From positions 1 to 64,000 of the forward strand of contig SHAP01000006.1 of assembly GCA_004213555.1 (NCBI GenBank): a stretch of DNA of 64,000 bases, in the 5' to 3' direction. This document shows positions 41,527 through 50,509 of this stretch, in pieces. A program made the translations under genes and the position numbers. Position 1 is the first letter of the stretch; every line of letters starts with the position of its first letter. The notes below the pieces were generated by a model. It searched no databases, was not told the origin of the DNA, and saw only the letters and a program-made list of their open reading frames with translations. The DNA comes from Phycisphaeraceae bacterium (lineage in GTDB: Bacteria > Planctomycetota > Phycisphaerae > Phycisphaerales > SM1A02).

Positions 41527-42360
41527 TCAGACCGCACGAATGGACTGGGTGGCCACACGCACATCGGATCGATCAAGTTTGTAATGCCCCAGTGACTTGG
41601 CATTTTGCAACGCCCGTTCGGCCAATGAGAAGTTAAACGCGTTGAACGCCACAATGCCCGGCTGGGCTTCGTAGCGGAACAAAATGTCCAAAAACTCTTT
41701 TGTGGATTCCATGGATTCGGTGGCCATCCCCAGAAGGTCATCAAAAGAAATGGAATCGGAAAAATAGAGTCGATTGCGTTCGTTGTCGCTTTGATAGTCG
41801 CGGATCATGTTGACCAACTGCAACGACTCTCCAACCGAAGGCGCCAAGCGCATCAGTTCCGCCTCTGCAGGCAAAAGTCCTTGGTCGTACGACGTGAACA
41901 TGGCCGTCAACATCTCACCCACCACACCGGCCACGTAGTAGCAATACTCACGAAGTTCGCTGACATCGTGCCAGGCATCGTTCTTGACCAAGAACTGATC
42001 CATGCCGGCGACGGTCTTGGCGAGATATTGATGGATCAATTCTCGATGTGGAAGCGGGACCGACTTCAAACGCTCGATCAAGGAACCGCGGGCGTCCATC
42101 AGTGCCACGTAACCAGAGTGCTCGATCGAAGAAAAATCAGACCAATGATCAATTCTTTCGGTGGAACAGGTTCGCACGGAATCGATCCACTCTGTCAGCA
42201 TCTGAGACCGCTGATTCGAGTCGAACGACCCTTCGTCTTCGACAGTGTCGGCCACTCGAAAGAGAAGGTAAGCCAATGCGACTTCCTCTCGGATGGGGTT
42301 GGGAAGCATCGGGATCGAAACCGCAAAAGAACGGCTCGTTTGCTGGAGAAGGTCAAACAT
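41527..42360 (-). CDS. crtB: Phytoene synthase (squalene/phytoene synthase family)
   Basis: Condenses two GGPP to phytoene, judging from context. Family motifs: SRSFAVSIPMLP at the N-terminus, the first Asp-rich motif RVADTVEDE, YCYYVAGVVGEM, and the second, NMIRDYQSDNE. 277 residues. Sequence alone does not separate phytoene from squalene synthase; the adjoining crtI, rhodopsin and blh favour phytoene. It overlaps crtI by 8 bases and is second in that transcript. Confidence 0.87.
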   Translation of the reverse strand: MFDLLQQTSRSFAVSIPMLPNPIREEVALAYLLFRVADTVEDEGSFDSNQRSQMLTEWIDSVRTCSTERIDHWSDFSSIEHSGYVALMDARGSLIERLKSVPLPHRELIHQYLAKTVAGMDQFLVKNDAWHDVSELREYCYYVAGVVGEMLTAMFTSYDQGLLPAEAELMRLAPSVGESLQLVNMIRDYQSDNERNRLYFSDSISFDDLLGMATESMESTKEFLDILFRYEAQPGIVAFNAFNFSLAERALQNAKSLGHYKLDRSDVRVATQSIRAV

Positions 42361-43972
42361 GGGTTACCTCCTTGGTGCTCGGGGCACCAGTGGAAAAGGT
42401 TGCAAGCTGGGCCACCGGCTTGCTGGCGGGAAGTTGATTTTCAATCCCGGAACTTTTAAGTATGGATTCGGCGGTGGACTTTGCCCCCAAAAAGATGACG
42501 GGCAAACCGGAACCAGGATGCGTTCCGCCGCCCACCATCCAAAGACCATCGACGCCGGGCCACCGATGGTTGGGGCGACGGAAAGCCATTTGATCCAAAG
42601 TGTGAGACAAGCTGAACGTGGCTCCAAATTCAATGTTGGATTGGGCCCAGGTCTGAGGCGTCTCCACACATTCCACACGAATGCGATCCGACAAGTCGAT
42701 GCCATATTCGGTGGCGAGCGTCCCCAAAACCTTCTGACGCAGGGCCGGAAGCTCTGCCGACCAATCCAGACCGCTTTTTTGGTTTGGCGTAGGAATCAAG
42801 ATGTACAACGAACTGCAACCGTCGGGTGCCATGGAGTCGTCGGTCACAGACGGATTGCACACATAAAAACTCGGGTCCTCGGAGACCACGCCTGAGCGGC
42901 CGTTGTCCCGTGAGATGTCGCGAAGGTTCTGCTCGTACTCCTCAGCCACTCGAATGGTGTGGTGTGGCAAATCCACTTCGCCATCGACTCCGAGGTAGAG
43001 CATGGCGGTCGAGCAGGAATACTTGGCTTTCTTGGTGCGACGACGACCCCAAGCGCCTCGAATATGGCTTGGCATCAAGTTGTTGATGGCCCACGCTGCA
43101 TCGGCATTCACGACAACGTGATCGTGGCGATGTTCGGATTGATCTTGCAAGACCACGCCATTGCATTTGGTTCCCTCGACCAACAACCCGGAAACCGAGC
43201 TGTCCAGACGAATGGTGCCTCCCAGCCGAACAAACAGGTTGGCCAAAGATTGCATCAATTGACCGCACCCGCCTTTGGGATGCCAGACCCCAAAGCCGTA
43301 TTCAATCAACGGCAAGATGCTGAACAGGCTTGGGCATTCTGCCGCCGACATCCCGAGATACTTGCTTTGGAACCCCACCGCGATTTGGGAAACCGGATGG
43401 GAAAAATACGAGGCATTGACGGTCTTGAGCGATCGGAAGGGGTCCAACCGCAACCCACCTTTCACAAAGTCTGGACGAAATGCGTCAAAAGGCGAGTCAA
43501 AAGAGTTCCGGAGGACCGGTTCAAATGCGGAGAGTTTTTTTTCGTTCAGACGGCAGAATTCCAAAAAAGCATCGCCATCGCCGGGAAAAATTTCATTCAA
43601 TCGAGCTTTCATTTGGGACAAATCACGCACCGCGTCGATTCGTTCAACCTTCCCGGCCCAGCCAATATCAAGGCGGTACATCGGGTCCAATTCCGTCAAA
43701 TTGCCGACCGATTGGGCGGTTTCACCGGTCAGGGCCAAGATTTCGTCCAAAACCTCGGGCATCAAGAAGAATGTCGGCCCCCGATCGAACTTAAATCCCT
43801 GATCTTGAACGGTTTGGCATCGCCCACCGGGCTTGGAATCGGCCTCATAAATGGTGGTGGGCACCCCATGACTCGCCAATAAGATCCCCGTGGCAAGGCC
43901 GCCAGGGCCTGCTCCAACAATTCCGACCGAATCCAACGCGCTTGGCTCGAAGTGCCTAGAGTTATGCCGCAT
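42353..43972 (-). CDS. crtI: Phytoene desaturase
   Basis: FAD enzyme that desaturates phytoene toward lycopene. The dinucleotide motif VGIVGAGPGGLATGILLA is followed by GGRCQTVQDQGFKFDRGPTF, and the C-terminal FAD motif is GLWMVGGGTHPGSGLPVIFLGA, as in CrtI-type carotenoid desaturases. Start options are ATG 43972, ATG 43990 and TTG 44008; none has a clear ribosome site, so 43972 (closest to the FAD fold) is used. Divergent from the rhodopsin gene with about 72 bases between, which must contain both promoters. Confidence 0.9.
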   Translation of the reverse strand: MRHNSRHFEPSALDSVGIVGAGPGGLATGILLASHGVPTTIYEADSKPGGRCQTVQDQGFKFDRGPTFFLMPEVLDEILALTGETAQSVGNLTELDPMYRLDIGWAGKVERIDAVRDLSQMKARLNEIFPGDGDAFLEFCRLNEKKLSAFEPVLRNSFDSPFDAFRPDFVKGGLRLDPFRSLKTVNASYFSHPVSQIAVGFQSKYLGMSAAECPSLFSILPLIEYGFGVWHPKGGCGQLMQSLANLFVRLGGTIRLDSSVSGLLVEGTKCNGVVLQDQSEHRHDHVVVNADAAWAINNLMPSHIRGAWGRRRTKKAKYSCSTAMLYLGVDGEVDLPHHTIRVAEEYEQNLRDISRDNGRSGVVSEDPSFYVCNPSVTDDSMAPDGCSSLYILIPTPNQKSGLDWSAELPALRQKVLGTLATEYGIDLSDRIRVECVETPQTWAQSNIEFGATFSLSHTLDQMAFRRPNHRWPGVDGLWMVGGGTHPGSGLPVIFLGAKSTAESILKSSGIENQLPASKPVAQLATFSTGAPSTKEVTHV

Positions 43973-44044
43973 TGTCTGAACGATATGCATGAATTGAACG
44001 ATCCGCAAAGGGTCAACTGAATTTTTTAGCTAAAGGAATTCGAA

Positions 44045-44839
44045 ATGGAAGAAATGTCAATGACCATGAAAGCCTTGCAAGCGGGCCTCTCCGCTGAGGG
44101 CGTCACCATGTACCTCTTCTGGCTTGGAATTGTCGGAATGGGTGCAGGATCGCTCTATCTCTTCATGATGCAGAGCGCTCTTTCCGCCACTTACAAGAAG
44201 GTCGCCATTGTGGCCGGCATCATCTGTGCCGTCGCATGTTTCCACTACTACCGGATGTCAACCATCTATGTGGAATCTCTGGCAAACGCCATCACCTTTG
44301 ATGAAAGCGGCAACGCAGTGATCGGAGAGCTCGCAGCCTTCCCCACCGCGTATCGATACATCGACTGGCTCATCACTGTGCCATTGATGGTTCTTGAATT
44401 CCCGCTGCTTCTCGCCCTGGGGCGTCGTGCCAACGGCATGTTCTACTCGCTCGGCGGCATTTCTCTGGGCATGTTGATTACGGCTTGGATCGCCGAAACC
44501 AGCCCAATCAGCTCGGGCCAGTGGTGGGGCTTCTACCTCGTCTCCTGCGCTTGCTGGGTGGTTATGGTCAGCATGCTTTACGGCCAAGTCACCAAGGCGG
44601 CGTCGCACCTGCCTGCTGAATTCCAAGACAACCTGAAGTGCATGAAGACCTTCATCGCCGTCGGTTGGATCATCTATCCCATCGGATTCCTGCTGGCCCT
44701 CTCCGGCAACGAAAGCATCCGAGAGATCGCTTACAACGTTGCTGACGTGATCAACAAGGTCGGCTTCGGTGTGGCTTGTGTGATCGCGGCCAAGACCCTT
44801 TCCTCCCTTGAGTCAGAAGGCAAGCTCCAGGCAGCCTGA
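44045..44839 (+). CDS. Light-driven proton pump, proteorhodopsin-type
   Basis: Seven-helix retinal protein, 264 residues. Proton-pump residues are all in place: helix B His67 (ACFHYYRM), helix C Asp107, Thr111 and Glu118 (YRYIDWLITVPLMVLEF, the DTE motif), helix G Asp234 and the retinal Lys238 (NVADVINKVG). Residue 115, the spectral tuning position, is Met, which goes with green absorption in other proteorhodopsins. ATG 44045 follows AAAGGAA. Expected to pump H+ out of the cell in light, with retinal from the adjacent blh. A strong terminator follows. Confidence 0.95.
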   Translation: MEEMSMTMKALQAGLSAEGVTMYLFWLGIVGMGAGSLYLFMMQSALSATYKKVAIVAGIICAVACFHYYRMSTIYVESLANAITFDESGNAVIGELAAFPTAYRYIDWLITVPLMVLEFPLLLALGRRANGMFYSLGGISLGMLITAWIAETSPISSGQWWGFYLVSCACWVVMVSMLYGQVTKAASHLPAEFQDNLKCMKTFIAVGWIIYPIGFLLALSGNESIREIAYNVADVINKVGFGVACVIAAKTLSSLESEGKLQAA

Positions 44840-44842
44840 TCC

Positions 44843-45814
44843 TTGTCTCCTGACGGAAACAACACGAAAGCACCCCACCCCGGTGGGGTGCTTTTCTTTT
44901 TCCCCCTCCTCCAATTGTTGCTGTGCGGGATTGTGGGCTGGCAAATCAATCCCGACGAACATGCATCGTGGATCTGGGTGGTGGCTCTGTTCTGGGTGGG
45001 CATGCCCCATGGCGCCATGGATTTCCACGTCATCACCTGGGTGAAGCACAAAGTGCTGGGGCTCCGCTACGACCACCAGATGATCACGTACACCGTGCTG
45101 ATGGTGCTGACGTATCTGGGATTCACTGCGGCACCCGTAACTTTTGTTCTGGCGTTCTTGGTGCTCACCGGGCTGCACTTTGGGGAGGCCGATCGCATCC
45201 ACGCCATGATTTGCCACCAACATGGGGACGAACTTCCCGTCACCTGGGGCTGGCTGCGGGGCGCGTTGGTGGTGGGCCTGCCCACACTCTTGGCCCCGGA
45301 GCAATCCTGGTCGCCTTTTCAAATGTTGTCCGGAGTGGCGTGTTCGCCAAGGTTGGCAACGGTTCTGCAAGTCTTCGGGGGTTCTGCCCTCAGCATCGGT
45401 TTGCTTGCCGCGGTGTGGGGAACATTCAAAGCCCCCCCCACCATCTCAAGCCCGACCGTAAAGCGGTTTGCGGCCGAATCCGTGCTGTGTGCGGCGTGGT
45501 TTGTGCTCTTCCCCCCCATGTGGGCCATCGGCGGGTATTTCCTCTGCATCCATGCCACCAAGCACATGCTTCGCCTCGGGAATTATCAAACCCCCATGGG
45601 CCTCAACCAAAAGTTCCTGACCGAGCTGTTCCGGTTGCACGCCCAAGGGTGGGTCCTCACGTTGCCCGCCTTGCTCGCGGTGTGGTACTGGGCCCGCGAA
45701 CTGGACGCCGCATGGATTCCCAGTTTGGCCAGCGCGTCGATCGGGTTCTATTTGATCAGCACCCTGCCGCACCACTTGTTGGTCAACCGGCTGCCGGTTC
45801 GCTCTGGTCTCTGA
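44843..45814 (+). CDS. blh: Beta-carotene 15,15'-oxygenase, Brp/Blh family
   Basis: Integral membrane enzyme that splits beta-carotene into two retinals for the rhodopsin. His-rich motifs of the family: VGMPHGAMDFHVITW, TGLHFGEADRIHAM, CIHATKHMLRL, and LPHHLLVNRL. About eight membrane helices. The start is unsettled: TTG 44843 begins ahead of the terminator hairpin, GTG 44888 lies within it. Missing from the cassette are crtY and crtE. The gene ends at the left edge of the tRNA-Asp repeat island. Confidence 0.88.
   Translation: MSPDGNNTKAPHPGGVLFFFPLLQLLLCGIVGWQINPDEHASWIWVVALFWVGMPHGAMDFHVITWVKHKVLGLRYDHQMITYTVLMVLTYLGFTAAPVTFVLAFLVLTGLHFGEADRIHAMICHQHGDELPVTWGWLRGALVVGLPTLLAPEQSWSPFQMLSGVACSPRLATVLQVFGGSALSIGLLAAVWGTFKAPPTISSPTVKRFAAESVLCAAWFVLFPPMWAIGGYFLCIHATKHMLRLGNYQTPMGLNQKFLTELFRLHAQGWVLTLPALLAVWYWARELDAAWIPSLASASIGFYLISTLPHHLLVNRLPVRSGL
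44867..44901 (+). terminator. Strong intrinsic terminator after the rhodopsin gene, overlapping the blh start
   Basis: AAAGCACCCCACC / GGTGGGGTGCTTT (44867-44879, 44882-44894), effectively an 11-12 bp GC-rich stem, followed by TCTTTTT. It lies 27 bases after the rhodopsin stop and inside the N-terminal codons of blh, so read-through must feed blh. Confidence 0.82.
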
Positions 45815-45819
45815 ACAAC

Positions 45820-45913
45820 CCACCCCAAGAAAAAAGCCCTCCTGGTACAGGAAGGCTTCCAAAAGCGAGGCGGACGAGATTCGAACTCGCAACCTCCGGA
45901 TAGACAGTCCGGA
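45820..45913 (-). repeat. attL: displaced copy of the tRNA-Asp 3' region and terminator
   Basis: Matches 47437-47530 at 92 of 94 positions; the two differences are adjacent in the terminator loop (GT versus AG). The copy has the T arm, variable loop and the 3' half of the anticodon arm, but no D arm or 5' acceptor, so it is not a functional tRNA. Confidence 0.9.
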
Positions 45914-46102
45914 AAGCAAGACCAAAATTTCGATGGAAATGTGCCTTTAGACGCTCCAAACGGCGATTGTGCTGGCGTGGCTTCTGCAGACCGTGCGCCA
46001 AATCGTGCGCTTTCGCCAGCCAGAGCCGCTCTGCACCACCTCATAGACACGCTTGATGACCGAAAAGTGAATGCCCTGATGCAGTTGCTTTCCGATTCCT
46101 AA
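45914..46102 (+). pseudogene. Left-end coding remnant of the island
   Basis: An open frame runs from the attL repeat to TAA 46100-46102; its last part reads APNRALSPARAALHHLIDTL followed by DDRKVNALMQLLSDS, a sensible amphipathic C-terminus. The RAPNRAL segment is also in the recombinase remnant at the right end in the same frame, so this may be the tail of a related integrase or a partner gene. No start or ribosome site is evident. Confidence 0.45.
45992..46013 (+). repeat. 22-bp direct repeat, left copy
   Basis: CGTGCGCCAAATCGTGCGCT plus TT is identical to 47396-47417. Both copies are inside the island, near its ends. Either an arm-type recombinase site, a trace of a nested insertion, or a conserved segment of two related integrase tails. 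Confidence 0.6.
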
Positions 46103-46153
46103 ATCCCTTCTCCCGAACCCCGACCTCATTTACTCTGCGGTCAGGAGTTCTCT

Positions 46154-47209
46154 ATGCGTGCATTTGCCCTCGTATCGTCCGTTGCCCTTGCCGTTGCATC
46201 TGTGTCCCACGCAGACATCTTTCAATACTTAGATTGTGATGGGAATGGGACGCTGCTTCTGACGGAGTTAGATGCGGAACCGGGAGTTGATTTGTCGGGG
46301 TTGTATCTGGGATGTGCGGATCTGTCTGGTACGGATCTGTGTTTTGCGTTGCTATTTAATGCGGACCTGACGAATGCGAACCTGTCTGGTGCGGACCTGT
46401 TTGGTGCGGACCTGACGAATGCGGACCTGACAAATGCGAATCTGAGTAGCGTAACCCTGCTTGGTGCAATCCTGCCCGGTGCAAATCTGTCTGGTGCAGA
46501 TTTGTCTGGTACGGGGCTGGATTTTGCGAACCTGTTTGGTGCGGACCTGAACGATGCGAATCTGACTAGTGCAAACCTGTCTAATGCAAACCTGTCGGGT
46601 GCGAATTTGTCTGGTGCAGATCTGTCTGATGCGTTCCTGCTTTCTGCAAACCTTTCTGGGTTGCGATCAGGTGGCATTGTGGGGACACCAGATTCTCTTC
46701 CGTCAGAATGGAGTTTGATTAGCGGATACCTCATTGGTCCGAGTGCGGACCTGTCTGGTGCGGACCTGTCAAATGCAGACCTGTTTAATGCAGAACTGAC
46801 GAATGCGGACCTGTCTGGTGCGGACCTGTCTGGTGCGAACCTGTTTAATGCGGACCTGTCTGGTGCAAACCTGACGAATGCGAACCTGACGAATGCGGAC
46901 CTGTCTACTGCGTACCTGAGGGATGCGGACCTGACGAATGCGGACCTGTCTGGTGCGGACCTGTCTGGGACCTTCCTTGATGGAACGACAATATGCCCTG
47001 TAACTGATCAAACCGGTTCCTGCTGCACGAATTCGGGTTGTGCTTCCATTTCCGAATCAAACTGCTCTGCGATGGGCGGCACTTGGACCAAAGATGGTTC
47101 CTGTGACGATTGCTCACAGGCATTTTGCTCCGGCGATACCACTGGCGATGCGATCGTCGGGTTTGACGATCTCGTCATCGTGATCAGCAACTGGGGTGCG
47201 TGTCCGTAA
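46154..47209 (+). CDS. Secreted pentapeptide-repeat protein with dockerin-like C-terminus
   Basis: Signal peptide (RAFALVSSVALAVASVSHAD) with a TCAGGAG ribosome site upstream of ATG 46154. An EF-hand-like loop (LDCDGNGTLLLTELD) precedes two blocks of A(D/N)LSX repeats (about residues 45-170 and 195-275), which should fold as a right-handed square beta helix. A Cys-rich segment (TGSCCTNSGCASI) leads to GDTTGDAIVGFDDLVIVI and NWGACP, the dockerin-like tail common on planctomycete secreted proteins. Cargo of the tRNA-Asp island. Function unknown; pentapeptide proteins elsewhere mimic DNA or act as structural solenoids, but this one is exported. Confidence 0.85.
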   Translation: MRAFALVSSVALAVASVSHADIFQYLDCDGNGTLLLTELDAEPGVDLSGLYLGCADLSGTDLCFALLFNADLTNANLSGADLFGADLTNADLTNANLSSVTLLGAILPGANLSGADLSGTGLDFANLFGADLNDANLTSANLSNANLSGANLSGADLSDAFLLSANLSGLRSGGIVGTPDSLPSEWSLISGYLIGPSADLSGADLSNADLFNAELTNADLSGADLSGANLFNADLSGANLTNANLTNADLSTAYLRDADLTNADLSGADLSGTFLDGTTICPVTDQTGSCCTNSGCASISESNCSAMGGTWTKDGSCDDCSQAFCSGDTTGDAIVGFDDLVIVISNWGACP

Positions 47210-47437
47210 GGCGGATTCTCCGGCTGGAAATCTTTTCGGAAGTTCTATGCCACCGAACTCTCACGCCGGGGCTTGTCAGTCCCCACCATCCAGCGAGCCA
47301 TCGGACACGCTTCGGCGAGGACGACGGAGCGGTATCTCGACCCCTCCCGTGACCTCGACAGGCGAGCGTGTTTCTCCGTCATTCCCCCCAAAAAACGTGC
47401 GCCAAATCGTGCGCTTTTCTCAGATTCCACTCCAAAC
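47210..47437 (+). pseudogene. C-terminal remnant of a tyrosine recombinase (integrase)
   Basis: Directly after the pentapeptide stop, in the same frame: WKSFRKFYATELSRRGLSVP then TIQRAIGHASARTTERYLDP. This is the catalytic core end of tyrosine recombinases: Arg in FRKFYATEL, His in GHAS and the nucleophile Tyr in ERYL. The N-terminal ~75% is absent and the frame runs on into the attR repeat and tRNA, so it is not functional as it stands. Confidence 0.8.
47396..47417 (+). repeat. 22-bp direct repeat, right copy
   Basis: Identical to 45992-46013; lies within the recombinase remnant 20 bases before the attR repeat. Confidence 0.6.
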
Positions 47438-47530
47438 CACCCCAAGAAAAAAGCCCTCCTGAGACAGGAAGGCTTCCAAAAGCGAGGCGGACGAGATTCG
47501 AACTCGCAACCTCCGGATAGACAGTCCGGA
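47437..47530 (-). repeat. attR: 3' region of intact tRNA-Asp and its terminator
   Basis: Partner of 45820-45913. It covers the tRNA from the 3' half of the anticodon arm to its end and continues through the downstream terminator. Confidence 0.9.
47445..47475 (-). terminator. Intrinsic terminator of tRNA-Asp
   Basis: Minus strand: AAGCCTTCCTG / CAGGAGGGCTT stem (one mismatch, 3-base loop) followed by TTTTTTC, 8 bases after the tRNA. A copy with a different loop is in attL (about 45829-45859). Confidence 0.75.
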
Positions 47531-47556
47531 GCTCTAACCAATTGAGCTACCGCCCC
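47483..47556 (-). tRNA. tRNA-Asp (GTC)
   Basis: Minus-strand cloverleaf: acceptor GGGGCGG / CCGCCTC with one G-U pair, D arm GCTC/GAGC, anticodon stem CCGGA/TCCGG with loop CTGTCTA (anticodon GTC), T arm with TTCGAAT, discriminator G. CCA is not encoded. Its 3' part is duplicated at 45820-45913. Confidence 0.95.
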
Positions 47557-47650: not shown

Positions 47651-50509
47651 CTATTTGGCCTCAATCCAAGTGGCACCGATCGATGAACCTGCAGTGATTG
47701 GGACCTGCAAATCGGGCATGGCCCCCGCCATGGCCTGCACCACGAAATCTCGCAAAGCCTCCGCCTGGCCACTGGGACACTCCAGCACCAATTCGTCGTG
47801 GATTTGCAAAAGCAAACGCGCCTCGGGGAAGGCTTTCGGCAACCTTCGATGCACGTCCACCATCGCCACCTTGATGAGGTCGGCGGCGGAACCCTGCACC
47901 ACGGTGTTGATGGCGTACCGCTCGGCCCGTTGACGCAACATAGGGTTCCGCTGGTCGATGCCCTCGATGGGCCGACGACGACCCAAAATGGTTCGCACGT
48001 ACCCAGTGTCTTTGGCCTCCTGCACGCACGCGGCCAAGAACTGATCGATCCCAACAAATCGGGCCTTGTAGTCGTCGATCACCTGCTGCGCTTCACCGGG
48101 CGAAATGGCGTGGTTCAACCGACGGGAAAGTCCAAAGGCGGTGATGCCATAGACAATGCCGAAGTTGATCATCTTGGCCGTGGAACGCTGGGTGTCGTCC
48201 ACCTCTTCTGGTTCCACATCAAAGGTCTGCGAGGCCACCGCGGTGTGAATGTCGGCCCCCAGTTCGAAGGCCTCCCTCAAGGCAGGATCACCGGAGAGAT
48301 GGGCCAAGATGCGCAGCTCGATTTGGGAATAGTCCGCTGTCACCAACAGGTTGCCTTCGTCGGCCACAAACGCCCGGCGGATTTCCCGACCGACATCGGT
48401 GCGAATGGGAATGTTCTGCAGGTTGGGGTCGCTGCTGGACAACCGGCCGGTCGAGGCGACCGCTTGATGGAACGAGGCATGGATGCGACCGGTGGATTCA
48501 CAGACATGCTCCGGCAATGAAGCCAAGTAGGTCCCCACCAACTTGGTCAGTTGCCGGTACTCGATGACCAATGCCGGAATGGGCGTGTCGACTCCAGGGT
48601 CATCACGAAGTTTCTCCAACACTTCCAAATCTGTGCTGGGGGTCCCGCTCTTGCCCTTTTTGATGGGCTTCAACCCCAACCCCGGGGCATCGGCATCCTC
48701 CGCATTGAACAATGCGGCCGAGAGTTGTTTGGGGGAATCAGGATTGAAAGGATGCGGTGCATGGGCGGCGACTTCGGCGGCAATTTCTTCGATGCGATCC
48801 TGCAAGCGGACTTGTTGCCGGGCAAGTTCTGTGAGATCCACACCGATGCCGTTCCATTCCATCTCGGCCAGCACTTCCACCAAGGGCAACTCCACATCTT
48901 GGGCAAGGCGGTCAAGGTCTTCCGCCACCAACTTGGGCTGCAAGAGATCATCCAAACGCAACGTGGCATCGGCATCTTCGGCGGCGTATTCGGCAGCCTT
49001 GTCCAAAGGCACCTCGGCAAAGCCAATCTGGGATTTGCCTTTGCCAATCAACGTCGAAATGGGCGTCATCTCCATGCCCAAAAGTCCCAGCGACAATGCA
49101 TCCAGACCATGGCTGCTTCGGGTGGAATCCAAGAGGTACGAGGAAATCATGGTGTCGCCAAAAGGTCCCACCACTTCAAAGCCAGCACCACGCAGGATCT
49201 GCAGGTCGTACTTCAGGTTGTGGGCCACTTTGCGAATGCCTTCTTTGGCAAAGACGGGTTGCAAGATCGCCAAGACTTCGGGCAATGCGAGATGCCGCGA
49301 TGCATCGGGAGAGTCCACCGGGATGTACACCGCCTCCCCCGCCTTGGTGCTGAACGACAACCCCACCAGTGCAGCCTCTCGTGCCCGCAGGCTGGTGGTT
49401 TCGGTGTCGAAGGCGAACCGGTCCACCCCCAGCAGTTCTTGGGCATATGCCTGGACCTCTTCGGCGGTGCACAAACAGCGGTAGTTGCCCAAAGATGCCT
49501 TGGGCGTTGTGGGCTCTGCTTCGGTCTCCGCCGCCCCGAACAATCCACCGTCAATGGGGTCGGGGGCGGCCGAAGATTTGCGGGAGGCGAGCACGGCTTC
49601 GGTTGCGGGGGCTTCGGGCGTTGATGCCTCAGCGCCCGCCAACTCACGAAAGGAACGGGGATAGGTGTTGAAACCAAGTTGGCGGCACAGTCCATCGAGC
49701 CCTTCAAGATCAATCTGACCACCATCAAAGTCGGCGTCATCAAGGTCAAATCCGGTGTCCAAATCCCGCTTGAGTTCGACCAGCTGTCGCGCCAAAGCCG
49801 TGGTTTCCCGGTGCTCACCGATCGCTTGCATCTTTTTGCCTTTGAGACCAGGCAGCGCTTCGTACAACCCCTCAAGATCGCCGTGCTCGATGATGAGCTT
49901 GGCCGCGGTTTTGGGCCCAATCCCCGGCACACCGGGAATGTTGTCGGCGGTGTCGCCCATCAGCGCCAAAATGTCCCCCACCATGTGAGGCTCCACGCCT
50001 TCGGTCTTGAACACATCGGAAGGGGTCACCAAGGCATCTTTCATCGCATCAAACATGTCCACCCGCGGTGAGCACAACTGGGTGAGGTCCTTGTCACGGC
50101 TGGCGATTCGTATCGCCAAATCGGAATGTTTTGCGGCGCACTGGGTGATGATCGAAGCAATGGTGTCATCCGCCTCCACCCCCTCAAGACCGAACACCGG
50201 AATACGCATCAAGCGCAGGAGCTCCAAACATCTTTCCACTTGGGGGCCAAAGTCTTCCGGGGCTTCGTCTCGGTTTGCTTTGTAATCGGCATACAACTTG
50301 GTGCGGAACGTTTCGGTATCCCCCGCCGCGTCAATCACCACCACCAACTTGGTGGGTTGGTGCGTGCGAATCATGTTGAGCAAAGTCCCCGTAAAGCCGT
50401 ACACCAAATGGGTTGGCTCCCCCGTCACCGGACTGGTCATGCCACCACGGATCGCGTGGTACGCCCGAAAGAAGGCCGCGTGGCCGTCAACAATCCAAAG
50501 TCGGTCCAT
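47651..50509 (-). CDS. polA: DNA polymerase I
   Basis: 952 residues with all three activities: the N-terminal 5'-3' nuclease (WIVDGHAAFFRAYHA; GDTADNIPGVPGIGPKTAAK), the 3'-5' exonuclease with intact DxE (FAFDTETTS) and the polymerase domain (DPNLQNIPIRT, VTADYSQIELRILAHLSGD, RRPIEGIDQRN, LLQIHDELVLECP). Works in Okazaki fragment processing and repair. ATG 50509. Coupled loosely to the downstream-positioned minus-strand genes at 50.5-52.2 kb (9-base gap from the upstream gene). Confidence 0.97.
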   Translation of the reverse strand: MDRLWIVDGHAAFFRAYHAIRGGMTSPVTGEPTHLVYGFTGTLLNMIRTHQPTKLVVVIDAAGDTETFRTKLYADYKANRDEAPEDFGPQVERCLELLRLMRIPVFGLEGVEADDTIASIITQCAAKHSDLAIRIASRDKDLTQLCSPRVDMFDAMKDALVTPSDVFKTEGVEPHMVGDILALMGDTADNIPGVPGIGPKTAAKLIIEHGDLEGLYEALPGLKGKKMQAIGEHRETTALARQLVELKRDLDTGFDLDDADFDGGQIDLEGLDGLCRQLGFNTYPRSFRELAGAEASTPEAPATEAVLASRKSSAAPDPIDGGLFGAAETEAEPTTPKASLGNYRCLCTAEEVQAYAQELLGVDRFAFDTETTSLRAREAALVGLSFSTKAGEAVYIPVDSPDASRHLALPEVLAILQPVFAKEGIRKVAHNLKYDLQILRGAGFEVVGPFGDTMISSYLLDSTRSSHGLDALSLGLLGMEMTPISTLIGKGKSQIGFAEVPLDKAAEYAAEDADATLRLDDLLQPKLVAEDLDRLAQDVELPLVEVLAEMEWNGIGVDLTELARQQVRLQDRIEEIAAEVAAHAPHPFNPDSPKQLSAALFNAEDADAPGLGLKPIKKGKSGTPSTDLEVLEKLRDDPGVDTPIPALVIEYRQLTKLVGTYLASLPEHVCESTGRIHASFHQAVASTGRLSSSDPNLQNIPIRTDVGREIRRAFVADEGNLLVTADYSQIELRILAHLSGDPALREAFELGADIHTAVASQTFDVEPEEVDDTQRSTAKMINFGIVYGITAFGLSRRLNHAISPGEAQQVIDDYKARFVGIDQFLAACVQEAKDTGYVRTILGRRRPIEGIDQRNPMLRQRAERYAINTVVQGSAADLIKVAMVDVHRRLPKAFPEARLLLQIHDELVLECPSGQAEALRDFVVQAMAGAMPDLQVPITAGSSIGATWIEAK

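Follow-up and report, generated by a model that had tools for sequence, protein, structure and literature searches.

Retention of the attachment ends together with near-complete loss of the integrase and survival of a single gene is a common fate of mobile elements, and streptococcal CIMEs are much larger than the 1.5-kb islet considered here. As set out in PMC5704250, CIMEs have lost their integration and transfer genes and kept attL and attR, and further elements accrete at the target gene. The islands at the ssrA gene of Dehalococcoides (PMC3146451) comprise tandem islets, of which 15 lack an integration module, and are characterized by a serine integrase and a 20-bp repeat. A third relevant system is ICEKp1, for which PMC13023037 describes an integrase co-directional with the tRNA and driven by the tRNA promoter, with the tRNA terminator being displaced.

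The locus described here belongs to a marine planctomycete with a 2.01-Mb genome (G000; 14 contigs, 91% complete). The window, that is the entire analyzed stretch of 64,000 nucleotides, lies within a 135-kb contig and contains an islet which is, in all likelihood, what decay has left of an integrative element of the tyrosine-recombinase type that had inserted in tRNA-Asp(GTC), in the 3' half of the gene. The principal comparison is with a sister species of the same genus, Phycisphaerae bacterium isolate NAT18 (G001), in which the site lies on a 109-kb contig (PAHO01000014.1). The features of the locus are:

45820..45913, minus strand: left (displaced) core, with the tRNA-Asp 3' half (45865-45913) and an intrinsic terminator (-18.4 kcal/mol, z -3.4)
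45992..46013, plus strand: putative left arm-type site, CGTGCGC twice with 12-bp spacing, 79 bp inside the left core; one copy of an exact 22-bp direct repeat
46022..46153, plus strand: left end of the cargo module, with the palindrome AGAGCCGCTCT, a short ORF tail and a leader, common to the copies behind tRNA-Leu(CAA)
46154..47209, plus strand: cargo gene for a secreted-looking pentapeptide-repeat protein of 351 aa (PF00805, E=4.3e-52)
47216..47392, plus strand: tyrosine integrase remnant (C-terminal part), beginning 7 nt past the cargo stop codon
47396..47417, plus strand: putative right arm-type site, the second 22-bp copy; the tandem begins 86 nt before the tRNA 3' end
47437..47530, minus strand: right core, the element-borne tRNA-Asp 3' half and terminator, which completes the functional tRNA gene
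47482..47556, minus strand: intact tRNA-Asp (GTC), predicted by ARAGORN
47651..50509, minus strand: polA, conserved neighbor upstream of tRNA-Asp

The duplicated tRNA end and the integrase remnant

The initial annotation had reported a duplication of the 3' part of tRNA-Asp along with its terminator, and this observation is fully reproduced: the 94-nt copies at 45820-45913 and 47437-47530 are identical at 92/94 positions, with both differences falling in the terminator loop, and a repeat search extends them to 98 nt at 97% identity (45816-45913 versus 47433-47530), 1617 bp apart. The length of the repeat excludes a chance origin. It spans the region from the anticodon stem through the 3' end of the tRNA to the intrinsic terminator, and the displaced half corresponds to positions 27-75 of the tRNA with 0 mismatches. 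With the intact tRNA-Asp(gtc) at the near end and a direct repeat of its 3' part at the far end, two features of tyrosine-recombinase islands in tRNA genes are present, and the ARAGORN prediction taken together with the repeat positions supports the proposed site-specific islet with the intact gene at the right and the displaced half at the left. The left core preserves the native 3' part of the tRNA gene, which integration displaced to the far side of the islet. The long core had also been proposed to carry the terminator, in agreement with which the terminator folds in both copies. The terminators of these two cores and of the middle and right cores of G001 have folding energies of -16.6 to -18.4 kcal/mol (z -2.8 to -3.7), and their hairpins vary in sequence with the pairing being kept. 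The order polA followed by tRNA-Asp is also seen in G001, G017, G058 and G070. The G+C content of the islet (0.543) is close to that of the window (0.564), and hence composition does not mark it as foreign.

The only recognizable contents of the 1.5-kb islet are the cargo gene and the integrase remnant. The latter, which had been noted earlier as a tyrosine recombinase remnant facing the tRNA, is real though short: it matches positions 131-168 of the 172 positions of PF00589 (38 positions; 47231-47344, plus strand) with E=1.1e-5, below the family cut-off. Its reading direction is into the tRNA 3' end, and the frame stays open via the arm site, the terminator and the antisense tRNA to 47545. 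Its C-terminus shows 45% identity over 46 aa to a 479-aa integrase from another genome of the same order (G135). Given that only 38 of the 172 profile positions are left, the islet has no complete tyrosine integrase gene and is best classified as a decayed derivative of a tRNA island. A search for tyrosine recombinases elsewhere in the 91%-complete genome detected only two, both Xer-like, one of them scoring just above the XerC cut-off (335.4 versus 335.15 bits) and the other above the cut-off of the general subfamily NF001399 and below both equivalog cut-offs.

In split integrases of the SSV type attP lies within the integrase gene, with the N-terminal and C-terminal halves at opposite ends of the element. 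This arrangement was considered for the islet and rejected, as the genome has one integrase fragment only, besides the two Xer-like genes.

Just outside the left core, at 41527-45814 of the window, lie a rhodopsin gene (PF01036), a blh-type dioxygenase and carotenoid genes. This block is found in G002 at 85% identity; G001 has different genes there and no DNA match to the block elsewhere. Variability thus extends to the flank of tRNA-Asp that lies outside the islet. An older second displaced tRNA half was looked for to the left of the rhodopsin genes and none was found.

Orthology in the sister species and the age of the unit

The same polA-tRNA-Asp site in G001 contains three cores (L039 2844-2934, 4027-4116 and 5071-5160). 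Unit 1 of G001 matches the window in its left segment (92%) and in the 3' end of the cargo (87%), and has the left arm site at the same place, with its middle having been replaced by ~700 bp containing other small ORFs. Unit 2 is a second tandem unit situated between the old unit and the tRNA, with a 199-aa ORF lacking a family match and an integrase remnant showing 87% identity to that of the window over the aligned stretch. From the integrase remnant into polA the two genomes are ~89% identical. The shared position of the left end, the left arm site and the 3' end of the cargo indicates that the integration of unit 1 predates the split between the two species. Hence, the recent integration which had been surmised from the near-identity of the cores is not borne out, the unit being orthologous in G001 (left end 92%, polA region ~89%).

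Pairwise comparison of the five cores gives 0-2 differences in the 54-nt tRNA part, as against 18 mismatches in 233 nt (~8%) in the left segment beside the core, a deficit that is not significant (binomial P ~0.06). Constraint on the tRNA along with gene conversion would be expected to look the same as continued recombination. Within the genus, the G003 contig starts inside the core and the matching G002 contig stops ~80 bp short of it, and no empty site is readable. In the same family, G017 (72% complete) has polA followed by a tRNA-Asp with a single match.

Putative arm-type sites

The exact 22-bp inner repeat at 45992-46013 and 47396-47417, which was overlooked in the initial annotation, is best read as a pair of arm-type sites at which the lost integrase would have bound, on the basis of its position and of parallels elsewhere. 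An 18-mer of this site has only 2 occurrences in the genome, with up to two mismatches allowed. The reading as arm sites is suggested by the unrelated tRNA-Asp islands of G037 and G135, in which tandem 11-bp repeats particular to each island occupy the corresponding positions: G037 shows AGACGCACTTT twice on each inner flank (shared 15-mer) and G135 shows ACCTAGCCGAA-type repeats on both inner flanks (shared 11-mer), in the same orientation as in G000 and at similar distances.

For the inner flanks of nine tRNA-Asp units, the longest shared direct word was compared with that in random pairs of 200-bp stretches (2000 pairs for each unit), the P values of the nine tests being uncorrected. Words as long as those of G000 (22 nt) and G037 (15 nt) were each seen in 0/2000 control pairs, followed by G012 (12 nt, P 0.006), unit 1 of G001 (11 nt, P 0.028) and G135 (11 nt, P 0.04), with unit 1 of G001 not being independent of G000, as it is the orthologue of that unit. 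The shared word was not significant in 4/9 units, namely G137 (P 0.08), G044 (0.61), G039 (0.69) and unit 2 of G001 (0.91). In public genomes the 18-mer was recovered in 29 stretches from scattered phyla, with two copies only in NAT18; the remaining stretches are taken as chance matches. Two viral contigs were hit, with no tRNA found in the stretches fetched. In unit 1 of G001 (L039 3982-4004) the integrase is wholly gone and the arm site lies about a dozen bases past the cargo stop codon.

tRNA-Asp as an integration site across the order

A second partial match to tRNA-Asp was recovered in at least 10 of the 61 genomes searched with the islet: G000, G001, G012, G037, G043, G044, G047, G055 and G059 are among the matches listed, and G039 was recognized from its locus. 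In four of these (G043, G047, G055 and G059) the displaced half and the intact tRNA are on separate contigs, and for this reason an island spanning both ends is not shown in them. A search of 151 genomes added G135 and G137. Larger islands with a complete integrase, which the initial annotation had suggested seeking, were indeed uncovered at tRNA-Asp in related genomes, with both ends on one contig in G037 (~50 kb), G044 (~22 kb), G012 (~46 kb) and G135 (~12 kb). In G058 a complete integrase gene runs into tRNA-Asp on a contig that ends before the other side.

The G135 island (L114 2403-14439) encodes an integrase, an HTH protein, a Prim-Pol/D5-type protein and a C5 cytosine methylase, and looks satellite-like in its make-up. 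The repeats of G137 (L115 2363-9825) are ~7.3 kb apart and reach past the terminator (two 59-nt blocks, 95% and 88%); they enclose a TPR-CHAT-PDZ protein, possibly a defense gene, and no integrase is seen among the three largest ORFs. At the lower extreme, G039 (L116 2911-3923) has a 47-nt repeat (91%) with copies 938 bp apart and one 181-aa ORF without a family match, with no integrase seen. On the whole, these loci show that tRNA-Asp has served as an integration site time and again in a planctomycete order, its occupants ranging from complete-integrase islands to one-gene scraps. No published description of tRNA-Asp islands in Phycisphaerae was found in the literature searched.

Integrase orientation and the tRNA terminator

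The core carrying the terminator looks like part of a wider pattern linked to orientation. A scan for a hairpin and T-run within 90 nt after the intact tRNA found a terminator in 6/6 genomes with an adjacent integrase or remnant facing the tRNA (G000, G001, G037, G044, G058 and G070), and in 0/7 genomes with an integrase co-directional with the tRNA (G012, G043, G047, G055, G059, G147 and G149); absence here means unfound by the scan, which missed at least two terminator-like hairpins recognized by eye (G046 and G056). G137, with no integrase among its three largest ORFs, and G135, with its integrase away from the tRNA, were left out of this count. The independent cases are few, since the seven co-directional integrases form one family (82-100% identical) and those of G037 and G058 are 78% identical to each other. 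In G012 the terminator is at the displaced half, and this co-directional arrangement matches ICEKp1 as presented in PMC13023037. The rule we propose is that an element with a tRNA-facing integrase brings its own terminator, and that with a co-directional integrase the terminator is displaced and the tRNA promoter may be borrowed.

Origin of the islet and alternative explanations

The above observations suggest a scenario in which an element would have inserted into the 3' half of tRNA-Asp(GTC), with its own 3' half and terminator keeping the tRNA whole and terminated and the original 3' end being pushed to the left. Later deletions would have stripped nearly all of the integrase gene, bringing its final codons up against the stop codon of the cargo gene, along with all else but the gene for one secreted pentapeptide-repeat protein. 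As both cores and both putative arm sites remain, a related integrase from outside could in principle excise the islet or insert a further element beside it, which is the CIME state; the second unit of G001, lying between the old unit and the tRNA, is placed as such accretion predicts. What is left in the islet retains nothing that would tell a conjugative from a phage or satellite origin.

The intact cores and putative arm sites, the tandem units of G001 and the presence of cargo modules ~87-92% related behind tRNA-Leu would also accord with a still active non-autonomous element that is regularly excised and reinserted by incoming integrases, the near-identity of the cores reflecting this activity. 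We consider this unlikely, given that the same unit is at the same place in two species and that only the Xer-like pair of tyrosine recombinases was detected in the 91%-complete genome. Integration is not the only source of direct repeats at tRNA genes, and a simple segmental duplication of the 3' end would require no integrase; this is very improbable in light of the integrase remnant adjoining the core in both G000 and G001, the extent of the repeat from the anticodon stem to past the terminator, the putative arm sites on both sides and the comparable integrase-bearing islands at the same tRNA. Still less credible is an artefact of assembly or binning: a metagenome-derived genome in 14 contigs at 91% completeness may contain misassembled repeats, but this repeat is internal to a 135-kb contig, and the separate assembly of G001 has the orthologous left end and three copies of the core at the same polA-tRNA-Asp site. 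The decayed integrative element accordingly stands as the preferred explanation.

Relationship to described elements

The islet belongs to a known kind of element, with no description of its tRNA-Asp counterparts in Phycisphaerae found in the literature searched. It appears to fit the definition of a CIME-like decayed islet: both att ends seem complete, and the only further tyrosine recombinases detected in the genome are Xer-like. Both ends are retained in the form of the two cores and the two putative arm sites, and the integration and transfer genes are gone, with just cargo and an integrase remnant recognized in 1.5 kb. The resemblance to CIMEs, as outlined in PMC5704250, thus extends to gene loss with retention of the att ends and to tandem accretion at the end of the target gene as in G001.

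The Dehalococcoides ssrA islands are a close parallel, sharing tandem islets at an RNA gene and an integrase frame that overlaps the 3' end of this gene, and differing in their serine integrase and 20-bp repeat as against a tyrosine integrase and 94 bp in the islet (PMC3146451). ICEKp1 likewise occupies the 3' end of a tRNA gene (tRNA-Asn) with an adjacent integrase gene, but its integrase is co-directional and its terminator displaced, whereas the remnant of the islet faces the tRNA and the element supplies the terminator (PMC13023037). The G135 island, from the same order, shares with the islet the target tRNA-Asp, a displaced half (57-nt repeat, 91%), 11-bp arm-like repeats and an integrase with the 45% identical C-terminus; unlike the islet it is complete, at ~12 kb, and its integrase is at the displaced end.

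The cargo and its copies behind tRNA-Leu

Over 57 N-terminal codons, the cargo gene shows dN/dS of 0.20-0.39 (six comparisons, four copies), pointing to constraint on the protein; for the copy in the islet against the other three the values are ~0.2-0.3. Its C-terminal stretch is dockerin-like by eye only, with no Pfam match found for it. Copies of 46022-47210 are also present behind tRNA-Leu(CAA), one in the same genome (C7, 72%) and partial ones in G001 (C35, 87%; C31, 91-96%) and G002 (C245, 85%). These copies follow another repeated motif, TTATACGA, and C31 of G001 has a displaced tRNA-Leu 3' half with further TTATACGA motifs inside. As the motif differs from that at tRNA-Asp, one cargo module has been joined to two attachment systems.

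A speculative extension, which we regard as rather improbable, is that tRNA-Asp and tRNA-Leu(CAA) serve in this genus as platforms for tandem accretion of short one- or two-gene units, each capped by the 3' half of a tRNA together with arm sites and a functional terminator, with the cargo module 46022-47210 being re-housed between units of differing integrase specificity. Such a system would constitute a slow counterpart of the integron cassette array, with the integrase supplied from outside and each unit insulated by its own terminator.

tRNA-Leu(CAA) forms a second platform in the genus (L044 3848-3921, L041 413-534), where the same cargo module is accompanied by the TTATACGA motif.
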